Shown here: in pieces, positions 36,279-43,366 of the stretch
How positions within the stretch are numbered: the first letter of the stretch is position 1
How the letters are laid out: every line of letters starts with the position of its first letter
Source of the DNA: Rikenellaceae bacterium
Lineage (GTDB): Bacteria; Bacteroidota; Bacteroidia; Bacteroidales; Rikenellaceae
Reading direction: 5' to 3'
DNA length: 64,000 bases
Assembly: GCA_017463585.1 (NCBI GenBank)
Contig: JAFTOX010000017.1
Span: forward strand, 1-64,000
Translations under genes and position numbers: made by a program
The notes under the pieces: model-generated
Told to the model about the DNA's origin: nothing
What the model saw: the letters and a program-made list of their open reading frames with translations, nothing else
Databases searched by the model: none

Positions 36279-36313
36279 CCCCCGACGTTCACGCGTCGGG
36301 GGTTACTTTTTTT
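36279..36313. terminator. Terminator between rny and the fimbrillin cluster
   Basis: CCCCCGACG (36279-36287) pairs with CGTCGGGGG (36294-36302), then TTACTTTTTTT on the plus strand. It may also slow the converging minus transcript. Confidence 0.85.
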
Positions 36314-36371: not shown

Positions 36372-38087
36372 CTATTCCGCCACACAACGAATATTCATTC
36401 CGTAGCCTCGATTGGCATAGATGTTCTTCGAAGGGTATATGGTTGTGTTATTTTTCGAGAATTGGAAGTAAGTCGAAACCGTTGTGAGCGACTCACTTAC
36501 ATAGTTCGAATTTGTCCAAAAGTAGCCCGTCAAAGCATTTGACCACTTGCCGTCCTTGGTCAGTCGATCCGTCAGCGGGAAGTAGGCCACCTCGCCATCG
36601 AGTGCCACCGTGTAGTAACCGTCGCCCGCCGTAAGCAACGAGGCAATCGAGCGGAAGAAGGTCGGCTGCGCCACACGCCACCCCGCAGGACAGGGATCGT
36701 GCTCGGTCTTGACACCCGCCGCCGTGCTGAAACCCGATGTCGTCGGATTGCCCCAACGATCGACCGTTGCCAGAGTGGCCCAATTCGAGATATAGAGATC
36801 GGGACGGCTCACCTCGTCTGCCAATGTCCCCACGCCTACCGTCGAGGGCGTGGTCACAAACGGCGTGCGACGACCCCACTGATAGTACATACCGATATCG
36901 GTCGGCGACACCGCCCCAAGATTGCGATCGAGCGCCACCGTACCATCGGCAAACGTCTGCGCCTTAGGCTCTTCGGTCGCCCAAATGTGCCAACTTCCAA
37001 CGATTGCATTGCTCGAATCACGCACCACGAGCAACGCATTTCCACGCTGCTCCGACGCCTCGAAACTCACGTAACCATCACTCGTCAGACCGACCTCCGA
37101 GATCAAACCCTCGCTATCCTCCCACAACAGTTCTGCCGTCACGCCACCATTCACACCGCAATCGAAGCAGTAACTGCCCGCCTCCGAAACGATGTAGCAA
37201 TTAGCTCGCCCATCGAGGCTCAAATCGGTCTGCTCGCCCGCAAACGTCAGCGTCGGAAGGTTATAGAGCACACCTCGTTGCAACGTGCGTCCGCCATTGC
37301 GACCTACCGTGCGCACCATCGTGCGACCGTCGCTCGTGGTCACACGCACCGAATATCCCGCCGTGTATTCAATCGCAGGAACAACAATATACAATGCCGT
37401 CGGCTCCGCACCCAACTCCTTATCACTCAACAAGTAAGTGCGTACGGAGGCATCATCGGCAAACACAACCACAAGCTCCTCGCCGCGCATATCGACCGTG
37501 AATTCGCCCGACATCTTCTCGCCCGTGCCACCCGTCACGCAGACACGGGCCAGCTGCTCTCCCCCGCCCGCAATCGAGAGTTTAAGCACCGCAAACAGAT
37601 TTTCGAACCCGAACGAGAGTGCATCTACCGCTGCCTCCGAGCTCTTGGCAACCATAAAACCGCACGCCTCGCCGTCGATTCCCGACGCCACATTGCGCTG
37701 CTCCGAGGGTAGCGTAAGCAGCAACTGCCCCTCAGTTACGGTCGCCTCGTCCTGCCGAGGATAGAATGCGAAATAGTCCTCCGTCGCGGCATTTTGGGTG
37801 GCCACCTCGCCATCGAAAGTTGCTACGCGACCTCCTGCTCCACTCGCCAAATCGAGCGCCGAAATCGCCCCATTCGACATCGCCACGACACCGATTTGGT
37901 CGCCCTCGGCCCACGTTACGACCGCCTGACGCGCAGTGGCGTCATCGGTAATTGTCGTGCGCACCTCGTCGCCAACACTTGCGGTAACTTGCACACGATA
38001 TTTTGGAGTATCATCAAGATTTTTATCATTGCACGCAACGGTCAGAAGTGCCAGAAATACCGTTGCAAAAATATTTAACGCTCTCAT
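36372..38087 (-). CDS. Fimbrillin-like lipoprotein with C-terminal FISUMP domain (1)
   Basis: 571-residue surface lipoprotein. Lipobox LTVAC gives Cys21; a fimbrillin-like beta-sandwich region spans about 30-290; then RANCYIVSEAGSYCF (near 310), SWHIW (near 400) and a FISUMP (TIGR02145-like) module: VALDRNLGAV, MYYQWGRRTPF, HDPCPAGWRVAQP and the end RCVAE. Same ordered motifs as the two other lipoproteins of the cluster. ATG 38087 was used rather than GTG 38099 because the signal peptide begins MRALN. It starts 2 bases after the stop of the small protein at 38090, so the two are coupled. Probably a pilus or surface-adhesion component (inference). Confidence 0.83.
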   Translation of the reverse strand: MRALNIFATVFLALLTVACNDKNLDDTPKYRVQVTASVGDEVRTTITDDATARQAVVTWAEGDQIGVVAMSNGAISALDLASGAGGRVATFDGEVATQNAATEDYFAFYPRQDEATVTEGQLLLTLPSEQRNVASGIDGEACGFMVAKSSEAAVDALSFGFENLFAVLKLSIAGGGEQLARVCVTGGTGEKMSGEFTVDMRGEELVVVFADDASVRTYLLSDKELGAEPTALYIVVPAIEYTAGYSVRVTTSDGRTMVRTVGRNGGRTLQRGVLYNLPTLTFAGEQTDLSLDGRANCYIVSEAGSYCFDCGVNGGVTAELLWEDSEGLISEVGLTSDGYVSFEASEQRGNALLVVRDSSNAIVGSWHIWATEEPKAQTFADGTVALDRNLGAVSPTDIGMYYQWGRRTPFVTTPSTVGVGTLADEVSRPDLYISNWATLATVDRWGNPTTSGFSTAAGVKTEHDPCPAGWRVAQPTFFRSIASLLTAGDGYYTVALDGEVAYFPLTDRLTKDGKWSNALTGYFWTNSNYVSESLTTVSTYFQFSKNNTTIYPSKNIYANRGYGMNIRCVAE

Positions 38088-38089
38088 AA

Positions 38090-38251
38090 TCAGTCCCACT
38101 TATCGTCTTCGTAATCATAACCTGGAGTTGTACTACCCTGCTCTCCCTCACCCTCGGAAGGACCTTCACCCGACCCTCTAAAACCAATTTCGGCCGCCAC
38201 CACAGTCACCTGCAATAACGGACACTGATAATCACACTTTTGCTTCTCCAT
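38090..38251 (-). CDS. Tiny Gly-rich protein preceding fimbrillin 1
   Basis: 53 residues, missed by size cut-offs. Begins MEKQKCDYQCPLLQV, has a core AAEIGFRGSGEG, then a Gly/Glu/Ser-rich acidic tail ending YEDDKWD. No signal peptide. The stop is followed after 2 bases by the ATG of the lipoprotein gene. The core matches the tiny protein at 43157-43366 (AE-[V]-x-[IM]-GFxGS) and both end in Trp plus acid. A minus-strand -7 box TATGTTTG lies at 38277-38284. Function unknown. Confidence 0.72.
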   Translation of the reverse strand: MEKQKCDYQCPLLQVTVVAAEIGFRGSGEGPSEGEGEQGSTTPGYDYEDDKWD

Positions 38252-38351
38252 TTTGTTATAAGTTTGAATTGTGGCGCAAACATACTACATTTTTCACAAT
38301 TAAACGACTAATAATAGAAACTTAGCATTGAAATCAAGTGTTTTGACTCAC

Positions 38352-38386
38352 AAAAAAATCTCCCCGCCATTTCTGGCGAGGAGATT
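38352..38386 (-). terminator. Terminator after fimbrillin 2
   Basis: On the minus strand AATCTCCTCGCC pairs with GGCGGGGAGATT (one mismatch) and is followed by TTTTTTTG. It separates fimbrillin genes 3-2 from the tiny protein/fimbrillin 1 unit. Confidence 0.85.
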
Positions 38387-38407
38387 CACTTTTAAGACAA
38401 GGAGCGG

Positions 38408-40357
38408 TTACTCCTTAACACAACGCACTGCGGCAGTTTCCGAAGCCTTCAACTGACCGTTCGAGGTAATACCATAAACACCCGAAGTCGTTTCACGAAT
38501 TGCCATCGTGTAGAACGCTGCGCCGTAATGGTGATTAGACGAGCGCGGGAAATAGGCCGTCGAGGTCCAATAGTGACCCATAGTGCCCACCTTGAACAAT
38601 TTGCCGTTACCGTCATAAGTACGATAGCCAGCCGCGGGCAACCAGCAATTTACACTCGAAAGGGTCAAACCGTTAGTCTTGCCACTTGTTGTAAATTGGC
38701 TCGTCAAGTCCGAGAAATCAGCCTTGACCTGCGCCTGTGTCGGCACTCGATAGCCTGCCGGGCACGGGTCATAATTACTCTTCTGGTCATCTACCCACAA
38801 CTGCGAGTACTCAACTGCACACATACCAGCAACCCACGGACGGGTTACATTGTTAAAGTTCTTGCTACCATCAGCACAGCTCGGATCGGGATCCGCAGCA
38901 GTCGCATTCTGACACATAAACATCGGCTGAGCAATAGCCTCAGCAACCGTCAAACCGACACCCGACTCATACTTCCAACCATAACCGCTATTGGCAACCG
39001 TATAGTATGTGTAATCTGAACTGAAAGCCGACGATTCGTCATTGGTGCCCGTCCACGAGTACAACTTACTACCAGGGAACGGATCCTTACGGCCCCACTG
39101 ATACATCAAACCATACGACCCCACATCGCCCGAGACAGCAGTAACAGCACCGAGGTTACGATCGAGCCACGTATTTGCATTCCACGACTGATCGGCAGGC
39201 ATATCGGTACACCAAATGTGCCAGCTCCACAGAATCTCACCTGCTTCGTTGGTATATGCCACTACGGCATTACCCTCCTCGCCCGAAAGAGTGAACTTAA
39301 TGGTAGCATTGGGGCAAGTCTCGTCTACGGGTGTTCCATCGGGTTTAACAGCAGGAATCGAATACGTACCAGCCGCCGAAGCGATGTAGCAGTTTGCAGT
39401 ACCTGCCTCAGCCAAATTTGTAGCCTCAGCGACCGACAAGGTCGACACGTTGCTAATCAGATTGCTCGACGAAGCCCATACCCACTTTGCAGCCTCATAC
39501 TCAGGACCATTCTCATCAACGGGAGCAGGGAAATCGATCGTCTTGCCCACGGTCAGCAATGAAGCACGCTGCATAGGCAGTTCCTGCGTAAACTTGTAAG
39601 TATCGGGCTCGTCTGCGGTATTGAAAGTAATGCCGTCACTATCCTCCAATGTGATGTTCAAACCCTCAGCATAGGTCGCAGGGGGCAGAATCACCAAGAA
39701 CGCGTACTCGGTATTCGCCGACATAGCAACAGCGCCTTCAAGCGTAACCGTTGCCGAGCCACCCGACGCCATAGTAAGCACGGGCTCGGTGGGGTCGGTC
39801 AGATCAGCGGTATAGTTACCCGCGATGGGCTCACCGGCATTCATTGTCACGACCATCTTGGTCAGCGTACGAGCTACCTTGCTTGACACCTTCACGCGCA
39901 AAACACCGCACATATTGTAGAAATATACGGTCTTATCGAAGTTGTCAGCCTGCGAGCTCATCGGCATCACATTGTACGACGAGCCTTCGGCGAGCGACTG
40001 CACGGCGGGCAATGACGATGTGAGAATGTTGTTCGCGAACTTAGCTGTTGCGCTGTAAGGATAGTAGAGGACGAAACTTGGCGTCTGTTCGTCGATCGTA
40101 GTGATCTCGCCCGAGAAGTAACCGAGCATATCCTGCGATGTAGTGAATTTCACATTTGTGTTTTTCTCAGCGAAACCACCGATACAATCCGAAGCGTCCC
40201 AATAGTTCGTGTTTTCGATAAAGTGAGTACGGCTAGTGTGACCAGCATTAAAGGTCACCAACTTTTTGCCATATACCACTTCGGGTTCGGGCGTAGGTTC
40301 GTCCGAACAAGCTGCGAGTGCAAAAACTGCAACACAGAGGAGTAATTTCTTCATCAT
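38408..40357 (-). CDS. Fimbrillin-like lipoprotein with C-terminal FISUMP domain (2)
   Basis: About 649 residues. Start at the ATG-ATG pair 40357/40354; lipobox LAAC lies near residue 21 (CSDEPTPEPEVVYG). An N-terminal fimbrillin-like half is followed by TANCYIASAAGTYS, SWHIWCTDMPADQSW, WLDRNLGAVTA, LMYQWGRKDPFPG, YDPCPAGYRVPTQ and end RCVKE. The spacing of these motifs parallels fimbrillins 1 and 3. It follows fimbrillin 3 after a 167-base gap and has no tiny protein of its own. Predicted exposed on the outer membrane; ligand unknown. Confidence 0.83.
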   Translation of the reverse strand: MMKKLLLCVAVFALAACSDEPTPEPEVVYGKKLVTFNAGHTSRTHFIENTNYWDASDCIGGFAEKNTNVKFTTSQDMLGYFSGEITTIDEQTPSFVLYYPYSATAKFANNILTSSLPAVQSLAEGSSYNVMPMSSQADNFDKTVYFYNMCGVLRVKVSSKVARTLTKMVVTMNAGEPIAGNYTADLTDPTEPVLTMASGGSATVTLEGAVAMSANTEYAFLVILPPATYAEGLNITLEDSDGITFNTADEPDTYKFTQELPMQRASLLTVGKTIDFPAPVDENGPEYEAAKWVWASSSNLISNVSTLSVAEATNLAEAGTANCYIASAAGTYSIPAVKPDGTPVDETCPNATIKFTLSGEEGNAVVAYTNEAGEILWSWHIWCTDMPADQSWNANTWLDRNLGAVTAVSGDVGSYGLMYQWGRKDPFPGSKLYSWTGTNDESSAFSSDYTYYTVANSGYGWKYESGVGLTVAEAIAQPMFMCQNATAADPDPSCADGSKNFNNVTRPWVAGMCAVEYSQLWVDDQKSNYDPCPAGYRVPTQAQVKADFSDLTSQFTTSGKTNGLTLSSVNCWLPAAGYRTYDGNGKLFKVGTMGHYWTSTAYFPRSSNHHYGAAFYTMAIRETTSGVYGITSNGQLKASETAAVRCVKE

Positions 40358-40468
40358 TTTATTAAAATTAGTCATCAATTTCACCATTATCGTACTCACT
40401 CCCTGACTACTTCTATTCTCACCGTAAATGGATAATTCGATAAATTATGTTTCACGTTTTGGGGATTT

Positions 40469-40499
40469 GCGCTTGCACCTGTGGCGATGGTGCAAGCGC
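40469..40499. repeat. Perfect 11-bp inverted repeat between fimbrillin genes
   Basis: GCGCTTGCACC (40469-40479), loop of 9, GGTGCAAGCGC (40489-40499). Neither side carries a T tract, so it is not a classic terminator. It may protect an mRNA end or adjust relative expression. Confidence 0.7.
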
Positions 40500-40524
40500 G
40501 CGTCCTCTTAATTATTAACCAATT

Positions 40525-43128
40525 CTATTGTTGTACGTTATCGTTATACTCCTTGATACAACGAGCAGGAGCAGCGTACATATTCTTAGCTTGCTCGCCG
40601 ATAAGAGCGGGTGATACACCAAAGTTCGAAGTGCTAATATCTACTGTATAAGGGGCATATACTGACCAATAGCTATCAAGCCAGCTAGATCCAGTGGCAT
40701 AGTCTGAATCACCACGAGGACCAAACCAGTGAGGAGAATAAATATCAACCGTACCACCTGAATAGCTCGCTTTTGCCTCAATACGCCCAGCAGCCCAAAG
40801 TGCGAAATTCTTATTTACCTGATAACCTGCACCAGCGGGAGTAATAGCACCGCTATTGGGGAAATTGGTGATAATAGGAGTCGAAGCTGTTGATCCTGCC
40901 AAAGCAACTGTCTGATACGAACGCTCACCATCGCTGTTTCGAGTATAATAGTTGCCAGCATCACGTCTTGTTGTAAATGTACCTGCTGGGTCAACAGTTT
41001 CTCCGTTAATGGTACTTGTACGTGAATTGCTCAATGTTACTGTATTCAATACAGAGTAACCAAATACACCAGAGCAATTCGACGCAGGGTCAGCATATTC
41101 AAACTCGTTATTCTTTAAGTTATCCCACTCGCGAGTCAAAGGCAACTTATAACCCAGCGGACACGGGTCGAAGAGCGTCTTCGAGTTAGCCGTTGCGGGC
41201 TCGTCGCTCGTAGCCCAACCGTACAACCAGTAACCTGCCGTTGCTTGATTGTCTTGTATGCTGTATACTTTGCCGTTACGCTCAGTTATCGTCTTAGGAG
41301 CTACTGTATTGGTATTCAGCTTCATCGGATGGGCATAAATGTTATTATAAAGATATGATCCTGATCCCCAAACCGCTTCATCAGGAAATTTAGTTGTGTT
41401 TCGGTAAGTATCAGACGTAGCCCAAGTACCCGAAGCGTTTGGTCCGATAAACGGGTCTTTACGACCCACCTGGTAATACAATCCATAGCTATCGGCGGTA
41501 CCTAACTCTGCCGACTCAGCACCAATATTACGATCCAACATATACCAATCCTCGTTGTTGATAGGAATCGACGGACGAGTGTTGGGGAAATTATAGTGCT
41601 GTGCCTTAGGAGCACCAAACCAAATATGCCACGACCAAATAATATCGGTCGAGTTCTTTTTGGTCAATGCAACCACAAGGTTACCACTCAAATTGGCAGC
41701 CTGAGGTTTCACAACAAGCACACCGCTCTCGCCATTAAGCGAAACGGTTACAACGTCCTCGACCTTGCCATTTGCAGCATCGAACGAATCACCCGAAGCC
41801 CACAACCAATTAACCTCGTAGTTCGTAGCCTCCGAAGCCTCGAAGAACTTGCCGTTCTCATTTACGGCCAAGCCCAAGCCTTCGTATGTAGCATTAAACG
41901 GCAGCTGACCATTACCCGGGATATTTACATTGAAGGTATAAGTACCGGGGTACGAAACAATGTAGCAGTTCGAGTGACCCTCAGCATCAAGCTGAGCCGA
42001 AGCCTCTGCGGGATCGACAACCTTATACGAAATCTTGTAGTAGTCGCCACCCTTCAATGCGTCGAGCGAACGCAAATCAATATAACGAGTGCGCTCAACA
42101 TACTCGGTACCCTCCTTGTTAACCAACTGTACAACGGCACGAATGCAGTTTACATTCTCTTTGGTTACCAATGCAGGGTTAACAACTGCCAACACGGGGA
42201 GTTTCTGCGACTGCCCCTTCAACTCCTGCTCCTCTGCCAACGTTACCGATACAACGGTTGCCGTACCCGAGCTCTTAACTACAACGTCATTACGGCTAAC
42301 ATTATTCTTCGAATAGGTATAATTCGAAGGCAGACCATAACGATAGTTACCAGCGATAGCTACGGGAGTAAACGTACCGTCGAGTTTGCTATTCTTGCTA
42401 TCCTTGCTAATAGTGCCGTCAAACTTACCCAACTCAACACGCATACCCTGAACCTTGTAGCCACCATCGGCAAATGCGTGCTGACCATCGGTGTTCTCGC
42501 CATAAAGCTCGAACTGCAAATATGCGGTCTGGTGCTGCAACTCAAATGCGCCAACACCCGTATCATCGGTCGTAATCAGGTCAACAGCTGCGCCGTAAGC
42601 ATTAATACTATTAACCGACGGGTGATCTGCTGCGCCATCAGTAATATTGTAGCCCGACTGAGTCTGCTGTGCCAAAGTACGAACCTGAACACCTGTTTCC
42701 TTCAAATAATTGACTGCGGTTGCACTCTCATTGATATTCGACGAGTTGTAGGGCCAATAGATAAACAGATCCTGCGCACCCTTACCAGTTGCATAGATAT
42801 CACCCTGGAAACGTGCCAAGTTCTTGCTCGAGTTGTTCAGCTCATTGATAGCAGCCTCAAAGTTCTCCATTGTTGAAGTATTGCTAAGTGCATACATACC
42901 AACCTTATCGGTCTCTTCCCAAAAGTAGGTCACCTTGCTACCAAAGGTACCCAAATAAACACGGGTCTCATCAGCCTCCGAAGCACCCTTGCCAGCTTCG
43001 AGAGTGATGGTCATCTTCTCCAAATTACCCTCAGGACCAACCGGTGTAGGCTCCTCGGTAAAATTATCTTCGCACGAAACGAAGCCAATGGCAATAATTG
43101 CCAATGCTAAATATTTCAATCTTTTCAT
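40525..43128 (-). CDS. Fimbrillin-like lipoprotein with C-terminal FISUMP domain (3)
   Basis: 867 residues, the largest of the trio. ATG 43128 gives MKRLKYLALAIIAIGFVSC with the lipidated Cys19; the open frame upstream to 43287 overlaps the tiny-protein gene and is rejected. The N-terminal 400 residues are fimbrillin-like; then HSNCYIVSYPGTYTF, SWHIWFGAPKAQ, YMLDRNIGAESA, LYYQVGRKDPFIG, FDPCPLGYKLP and RCIKEYNDN. The FISUMP segment is longer than in the other two, by insertions between LDRN and the C-terminus. It lies 28 bases after the tiny protein. Confidence 0.83.
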   Translation of the reverse strand: MKRLKYLALAIIAIGFVSCEDNFTEEPTPVGPEGNLEKMTITLEAGKGASEADETRVYLGTFGSKVTYFWEETDKVGMYALSNTSTMENFEAAINELNNSSKNLARFQGDIYATGKGAQDLFIYWPYNSSNINESATAVNYLKETGVQVRTLAQQTQSGYNITDGAADHPSVNSINAYGAAVDLITTDDTGVGAFELQHQTAYLQFELYGENTDGQHAFADGGYKVQGMRVELGKFDGTISKDSKNSKLDGTFTPVAIAGNYRYGLPSNYTYSKNNVSRNDVVVKSSGTATVVSVTLAEEQELKGQSQKLPVLAVVNPALVTKENVNCIRAVVQLVNKEGTEYVERTRYIDLRSLDALKGGDYYKISYKVVDPAEASAQLDAEGHSNCYIVSYPGTYTFNVNIPGNGQLPFNATYEGLGLAVNENGKFFEASEATNYEVNWLWASGDSFDAANGKVEDVVTVSLNGESGVLVVKPQAANLSGNLVVALTKKNSTDIIWSWHIWFGAPKAQHYNFPNTRPSIPINNEDWYMLDRNIGAESAELGTADSYGLYYQVGRKDPFIGPNASGTWATSDTYRNTTKFPDEAVWGSGSYLYNNIYAHPMKLNTNTVAPKTITERNGKVYSIQDNQATAGYWLYGWATSDEPATANSKTLFDPCPLGYKLPLTREWDNLKNNEFEYADPASNCSGVFGYSVLNTVTLSNSRTSTINGETVDPAGTFTTRRDAGNYYTRNSDGERSYQTVALAGSTASTPIITNFPNSGAITPAGAGYQVNKNFALWAAGRIEAKASYSGGTVDIYSPHWFGPRGDSDYATGSSWLDSYWSVYAPYTVDISTSNFGVSPALIGEQAKNMYAAPARCIKEYNDNVQQ

Positions 43129-43156
43129 AATACTCACATTCAAATTGTTAAACACT

Positions 43157-43366
43157 CTACTCAGCCCACTGACCTGCATCATACAAAGCTGCACTCGCCT
43201 GCGCCGAATCCGTCGACATACCATCGTCGCTATCGCCAATAGTAGTACCATCGCCAAAACCCGCACTGCCGTCAGGCGAGCCGACAAAACCCATCTCTAC
43301 CTCCGCAAAAAGGCAGTCGATTCTCGGAACCTCGTAAGGCTCCTTTCTAAGTTCACATTTGTTCAT
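43157..43366 (-). CDS. Tiny Gly/Ser-rich protein preceding fimbrillin 3
   Basis: 69 residues from ATG 43366. Start MNKCELRKEPYEVPRIDC, core FAEVEMGFVGSPDG, then a Gly/Ser/Asp-rich tail with end DAGQWAE. No signal peptide, so either cytoplasmic or exported after processing. Related to the 53-residue protein at 38090-38251 by the AE..GFxGS core, an N-terminal pair of Cys and a C-terminal Trp. First gene of the transcript with fimbrillins 3 and 2. Confidence 0.72.
   Translation of the reverse strand: MNKCELRKEPYEVPRIDCLFAEVEMGFVGSPDGSAGFGDGTTIGDSDDGMSTDSAQASAALYDAGQWAE

Follow-up and report, generated by a model that had tools for sequence, protein, structure and literature searches.

The closest described system is that of the linear polyphosphorylated peptides (LPPs; lppA-K-B-S-D-N), a RiPP family from Paenibacillus alginolyticus (Nat Commun 2026; PMC13381572). 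LPP precursors carry the motif YxxPxVLxHQxIxFETxxS and are cleaved, with the assistance of an RRE, by the SpI-like peptidase LppS, which has the catalytic residues S29, H68 and D93, while Ser3 of the core is polyphosphorylated in an LppK-dependent manner (PMC13381572). The gene clusters, which contain 1-3 precursors each, belong to capsule loci, show in Bacilli a patchy distribution typical of conflict systems and were called restricted to Bacillota, and the role of LPPs was stated to be unknown (PMC13381572). A term search of the text of that paper returned no mention of Bacteroidota or fimbriae. More generally, the YxxP motif in leaders is described in the literature as bound by RREs. In Bacteroidales, a mining study of RiPPs recovered mainly GG-motif peptides with C39 transporters.

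The window analysed here, a stretch of 64,000 nucleotides from a Rikenellaceae bacterium, contains two tiny ORFs that lie directly before two of three surface lipoprotein genes, all on the minus strand. This arrangement had been reported in a first-pass annotation, and the ORFs, their coordinates and the gaps were confirmed. Protein 1 (53 aa; 38090-38251) is encoded by an ATG ORF, and its stop codon is separated by 2 nt from the ATG, at 38087, of a 571 aa lipoprotein (36372-38087). Protein 2 (69 aa; 43157-43366), also from an ATG ORF, is the first gene of its module and ends 28 nt before the ATG, at 43128, of an 867 aa lipoprotein (40525-43128), which was identified from its ORF and lipobox and is similar in sequence to other lipoproteins in the window. 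The third lipoprotein (38408-40384), recognized by its ORF and its similarity to the others, has no small ORF of its own. Between it and protein 1 is a minus-strand terminator-like hairpin of 14 pairs with a T tract (38356-38387), and the protein 1 gene thus probably begins its own transcription unit. A further terminator-like hairpin on the same strand (36279-36302) lies 3' of the protein 1 partner. No match to the Bacteroidetes-type promoter pattern was found upstream of the small ORFs (36.3-44.2 kb, minus strand).

Both small genes are genuine. The locus is syntenic in a close relative, G133, where the orthologue of the 69 aa protein is 94% identical, with a dN/dS of 0.26 that is calculated from 8 changes only. 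The syntenic G133 orthologue of the 53 aa protein retains the Y, P, E, GF and S residues and the YDYEDDxWD tail. It has lost the Cys residues, and just 9/165 members of the family described below contain at least two, so the Cys pair that the first-pass annotation had listed as a shared trait is not a property of the family. Its remaining observations on the small proteins, that they have no signal peptide and that their acidic Gly/Ser tails end in Trp plus acid, were borne out.

A family was assembled from a tblastn search of the genus followed by an HMM, and approximately 85,000 prokaryote genomes were searched with a degenerate DNA pattern. The family is spread Bacteroidales-wide and reaches 23 hits in a single genome, and small-ORF matches to the pattern were found in Alistipes/Rikenellaceae, Bacteroides, Phocaeicola, Mediterranea, Dysgonamonadaceae and other Bacteroidales. 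Outside Bacteroidota, pattern matches were inside large ORFs or not family-like, as chance predicts, and a plasmid search returned no match. The gap-free core consensus is YxxPx[ILV][ED]x5[VI]ExGFxxS, in which Y, P, E, G and F are invariant in an alignment of 66 diverse rows. The core shared by the two window proteins is ExGFxGS with Y-x-x-P before it in the alignment, which corrects the core noted earlier, where Y-x-x-P had been overlooked. The third residue after GF is Ser in 159/165 members and Thr in 5/165. A variable tail follows (mean 18 residues), in which Gly, Asp, Glu, Ser and Trp are abundant and Lys/Arg almost absent. A variant found in genus g26 (L297, L299, L309, L310 and L315), mostly directly before a lipoprotein, has VEAGIAxS in place of VExGFxxS.

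The recurrence of the family is beyond chance expectation and selection on it is purifying. Across 29 relative pairs, leaders gave a dN/dS of 0.33 and tails one of 0.40, values that are approximate as the pairs were picked for similarity; together with the G133 comparison, they place the small frames at 0.26-0.40, not near the value of 1 that would have spoken against the first-pass reading. A conserved leader followed by a length-variable acidic tail is, judged by sequence, the pattern of a RiPP precursor. In protein 2, the predicted leader comprises residues 1-27 (YEVP...VEMGF; 43286-43366), delimited from the invariant residues and by analogy to the LPP leader, and Ser/Thr conservation and the same analogy predict a core of residues 28-69 (43160-43285). 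Ser30 (codon 43277-43279), the third residue after GF, is the predicted modification site. In protein 1, the family alignment points to a leader of residues 1-24 (...YQCP...AEIGF; 38180-38251), while conservation, the G133 orthologue and the LPP analogy suggest a core of residues 25-53 (38093-38179), with the conserved Ser27 (codon 38171-38173) as the putative counterpart of Ser30. The cut sites in both proteins are inferred. The pairs L079/L116 and L090/L093 have near-identical leaders, different tails and different partners, which suggests that core and partner have been shuffled behind a common leader.

Searches of the small proteins against Pfam, NCBIfam and PHROGs assigned no family, neither Pfam nor NCBIfam has a model for the one described here, and a leader profile found nothing among PDB sequences. 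One weak PHROG match (E 0.013) was judged to be due to chance. With a best E of 0.0078, 4/27 members weakly matched NF033524, the model of paeninodin lasso precursors, which pointed to YxxP, the motif that RREs bind. In the openly licensed literature, we found no report of the family or of its lipoprotein pairing in Bacteroidota. The statement of the first-pass annotation that no characterized family matches was nearly right: the matching pathway was published in 2026, for Bacillota only (PMC13381572).

The pairing seen in the window is general. The unbiased pattern scan gave 109 unique members for which the sequence extended far enough downstream; in 102 of them a lipoprotein gene follows directly (same strand, start ≤400 nt away), and in 96 it starts within 100 nt (median gap 28.5 nt). 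Lipoproteins make up 13.6% of the other genes at the same loci. These figures strongly support the earlier suggestion of a repeated module of a small protein plus a big surface protein. The genome of the window itself contains at least six family members, five of them directly before a lipoprotein. No lipoprotein follows the sixth (G000:C8:267436; L371:2239-2526).

The partners are fimbrillin-like adhesins that have a common type V fimbrillin-like N-terminal domain and varied C-terminal modules. A W..GD-type signature is present near the N terminus in 81/98 partners, and Pfam matches in 63 partners were few: LRR_5 in 10, Mfa_like_1 in 4, CBM26 in 3, BACON in 2, and FimA and an M64 peptidase in 1 each. 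For the 571 aa partner, a structural model, confident in residues ~60-280 only (pLDDT ~80 with lower patches; overall mean 58.7), predicts a type V fimbrillin-like fold over residues ~28-285. The model matched structures of fimbrial proteins and adhesins from Bacteroidales (Foldseek E 6.8e-10), with a best Z of 14.8 to 3t2l over 218 residues and a Z of 9.4 to FimA (4q98). The FISUMP part of the earlier 'fimbrillin-FISUMP' description fared less well than the fimbrillin part. In the window partners, matches to FISUMP PF09603 scored 19.2 and 13.7 bits, below the cut-off of 33.9, and the best match to TIGR02145 scored 18.5 bits against a cut-off of 41.65. The 571 aa protein has a weak FISUMP match at its C terminus, and in the 867 aa protein FISUMP and PG1828 matches are both sub-threshold. 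As the ends of the partners vary on a shared fimbrillin-like domain, FISUMP is one of several C-terminal types and too narrow a label. Covariation between tails and partners was weak (partial rho 0.067; 3/300 permutations) and was set aside as evidence; the case for an interaction between peptide and adhesin therefore draws mainly on gene order.

The genome of the window encodes one standalone PqqD-like RRE (PF05402, E 3.3e-12; G000:C20) and, elsewhere, an HprK-like kinase located between an ABC exporter and an S26-like gene in an operon of adjacent genes (G000:C7). An NTP transferase is also present, inside a polysaccharide locus. That the RRE, the operon and the NTP transferase are at three separate places, the last among polysaccharide genes, counts against an LPP-like reading. 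When the RRE profile was compared with the PDB, the lasso RRE TfuB1 was the sole match. The kinase has an invariant Walker-type GESGTGKSTH and weak matches to TIGR04352 and TIGR04249, and the best NCBIfam matches of the exporter are PglK and MsbA. In the S26-like proteins, GxSMxP, HR and GDGN are invariant, Ser and His are 38-40 residues apart, against 39 in LppS (PMC13381572), and the profile matches SEC11 subunits, i.e. the ER/archaeal type of signal peptidase. Motifs, spacing and the SEC11 match together point to an SpI-like site of Ser, His and, putatively, Asp. Near the RRE gene is a lipoprotein that resembles C10 peptidases (L189:5567-7114). A second set of PqqD-like, NTP transferase and HprK-like genes was seen in polysaccharide loci of some genus members (L225:7770-10046, L286 and L287; second sets in G034, G008 and G027). 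It includes no S26-like gene and was judged to be a separate system.

Elsewhere in the order the same genes are found together. In G158 and G169, which represent two other families, the only ones for which the sample contained confident members, the RRE gene is in an operon with genes for the HprK-like kinase, the S26-like peptidase and the ABC exporter, to which G169 adds the NTP transferase. A family member lies inside the kinase/S26/RRE/NTP/ABC operon of G169, 38 nt upstream of the kinase gene, and in G356 another is ~2.1 kb from the cassette, whereas in the genome of the window the members are scattered away from it. Of the 18 kinase loci that were inspected outside the genus, 14 had the RRE, kinase and peptidase genes together, and the NTP transferase was within the cassette in 12 of the 21 loci listed.

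Across Bacteroidales, the distributions of RRE and kinase follow that of the family. In the genus set (37 genomes, 33 family-positive and 4 family-negative), the RRE was found in 32/33 positive and 0/4 negative genomes (p = 7.6e-5, phylogeny ignored) and the kinase in 30/33 and 0/4 (p = 5.3e-4, phylogeny ignored). Outside the genus, in the sample that included G158 and G169, strong kinase scores were confined to these two. A further 295 more complete genomes of the order included 20 with a strong kinase match, 14 with the family and 10 with both (p = 1.4e-10, phylogeny ignored). A strong RRE match (E < 1e-30) was seen in nine genomes that span six families of the order, and all nine have the family (p = 4.9e-14, phylogeny ignored). 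Four family-positive genomes are without a strong kinase, and at least one of these (G193) looks like a chance match. The absence of a family match, at the threshold used, from 10 of the 20 strong-kinase genomes (G225, G314, G368, G376, G203, G433, G434, G233, G312 and G416) likewise counts against the LPP-like reading; their precursors are probably divergent. A candidate precursor was noted in G376 (L360:12208-12393).

On this evidence, an LPP-like pathway is a well-supported assignment at the level of sequence. By homology, the standalone PqqD-like RRE would bind the leader at its YxxPx[IL] strand and the HprK-like kinase would phosphorylate the conserved Ser three residues after GF. The ER/archaeal-type signal-peptidase-like protease would remove the leader near ExGF, and the acidic core with its Trp tip would leave the cytoplasm through the MsbA-like ABC exporter. 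A single pathway would serve the many precursors, which are dispersed in the genome and each encoded with a type V fimbrillin-like surface lipoprotein; gene order suggests that, outside the cytoplasm, the most likely action of the mature peptide is with or on this adhesin. We consider it probable (roughly 0.72) that the small proteins give rise to an LPP-like RiPP, with the pathway and the action with the adhesin as proposed. A more specific proposal, that each pilin-like lipoprotein has as its cognate component or ligand the mature peptide encoded with it, probably in phosphorylated form, is tentative, and we would give it rather less than even odds. Of the three roles guessed at by the first-pass annotation, that of modified peptides is the best supported, ahead of pilus-tip or export partners and of regulators, by the YxxP leader, the co-occurrence with RRE, kinase, peptidase and exporter, and the in-operon member.

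The products of an LPP-like pathway might instead be diffusible signals or antagonists, with the lipoprotein as receptor, carrier or immunity factor and not as a structural partner. The patchiness of LPP genes in Bacilli, as in conflict systems (PMC13381572), would suit this, as would tails that vary widely behind common leaders, including near-identical leaders with different tails (L079 and L116). However, up to 23 hits per genome, each with a large pilin-like partner, are unlike known bacteriocin-immunity layouts, and the partners have a fimbrillin-like adhesin fold, which makes such a role unlikely. The small proteins could also be unmodified cytosolic or export-helper proteins dedicated to their own lipoprotein, as in the pilus-tip or export partner of the earlier guess. 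While the tight pairing (median gap 28.5 nt), the conserved residues and the missing signal peptide are in keeping with this, it leaves the RRE and kinase co-occurrence, the in-operon member and the RRE-type YxxP strand unexplained, and we regard it as quite improbable. Were the small ORFs instead cis-acting, their translation coupling or attenuating that of the lipoprotein and the peptide itself irrelevant, their position as the first gene of the module, the short gaps and the stop codon 2 nt before the next ATG would be expected. Conservation of an amino acid motif across the order, a dN/dS of 0.26-0.40 and co-occurrence in trans with RRE and kinase would not, and we regard this explanation as very improbable.

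Two further routes were considered and rejected. True lasso peptides of the paeninodin type would account for the YxxPx[IL] leader, the standalone RRE, the HprK-like kinase and the weak NF033524 match, but no B2-type protease (Transglut_core3) was found above the cut-off in the genome of the window, which is 96.65% complete, a signal-peptidase-like protease takes its place, and the conserved GFxxS occurs without the penultimate leader Thr; we consider this reading hardly credible. Double-glycine peptides, which C39 peptidase-containing transporters cleave and export, represent the usual bacteriocin route of Bacteroidales and are common there, and GxGS/GxAS with a Gly-rich tail is superficially like a GG leader. 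As eight control genomes contain Peptidase_C39 and the genome of the window has no match to it, this route is already contradicted and its probability is close to nil.

An LPP-like pathway with scattered, adhesin-paired precursors would extend a RiPP class described as Bacillota-restricted to a dominant gut order, and would change the way in which it is organized: where LPP has a single cluster with 1-3 precursors, here a single pathway would have numerous precursors dispersed in the genome. As the precursors lie away from the enzymes, cluster-based mining tools likely miss these genes. As nearly every precursor sits before a pilin-like adhesin, they also offer a first genomic clue to the role of such peptides, which is now testable via the paired adhesin genes. 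If the link between peptide and adhesin is true, surface adhesion in gut Bacteroidales would depend on a peptide modification that has gone unrecognized, and one RiPP pathway would equip many surface adhesins with private modified peptides, a new role for a RiPP.

Compared with type V fimbrillins (FimA, Mfa1-5 and Bacteroides fimbrial-like adhesins), the N-terminal region of the partners has, according to the model, the same fold, and the partners add C-terminal modules (FISUMP-like, LRR_5, CBM26, BACON and M64). To our knowledge, the fim and mfa operons have not been described as containing such a small gene. Paeninodin-type lasso systems likewise have an RRE-bound leader with Y/W-x-x-P-x-[LI], an HprK-like kinase, an NTP transferase and an ABC exporter, and differ in their protease, the genome of the window having yielded a different protease and no B2. 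The likeness to LPP goes further. Both have an RRE, an HprK-like kinase, an SpI-like peptidase, an NTP transferase and an MsbA-like exporter, here known from genes, no lasso B2 protease was found here either, and the precursors share a YxxPx[VLI] leader, a Ser at (predicted) core position 3 and a variable C terminus. The LPP core begins AQS, and AQ before Ser is the second commonest pair after GF in the present family (15/165). Formal LPP membership is not claimed, since the precursors are mostly outside the cluster and the product is known from genes only. Unlike in LPP, the second half of the leader is VExGF and not HQxIxFET, and is one residue longer, and the precursors, which are in Bacteroidales and number up to 23 hits per genome, are mostly scattered off the cassette and before a fimbrillin-like lipoprotein. 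We favour reading the module as a branch of the LPP RiPPs in Bacteroidales, or as a close analogue of them, in which scattered precursors are paired with adhesins.
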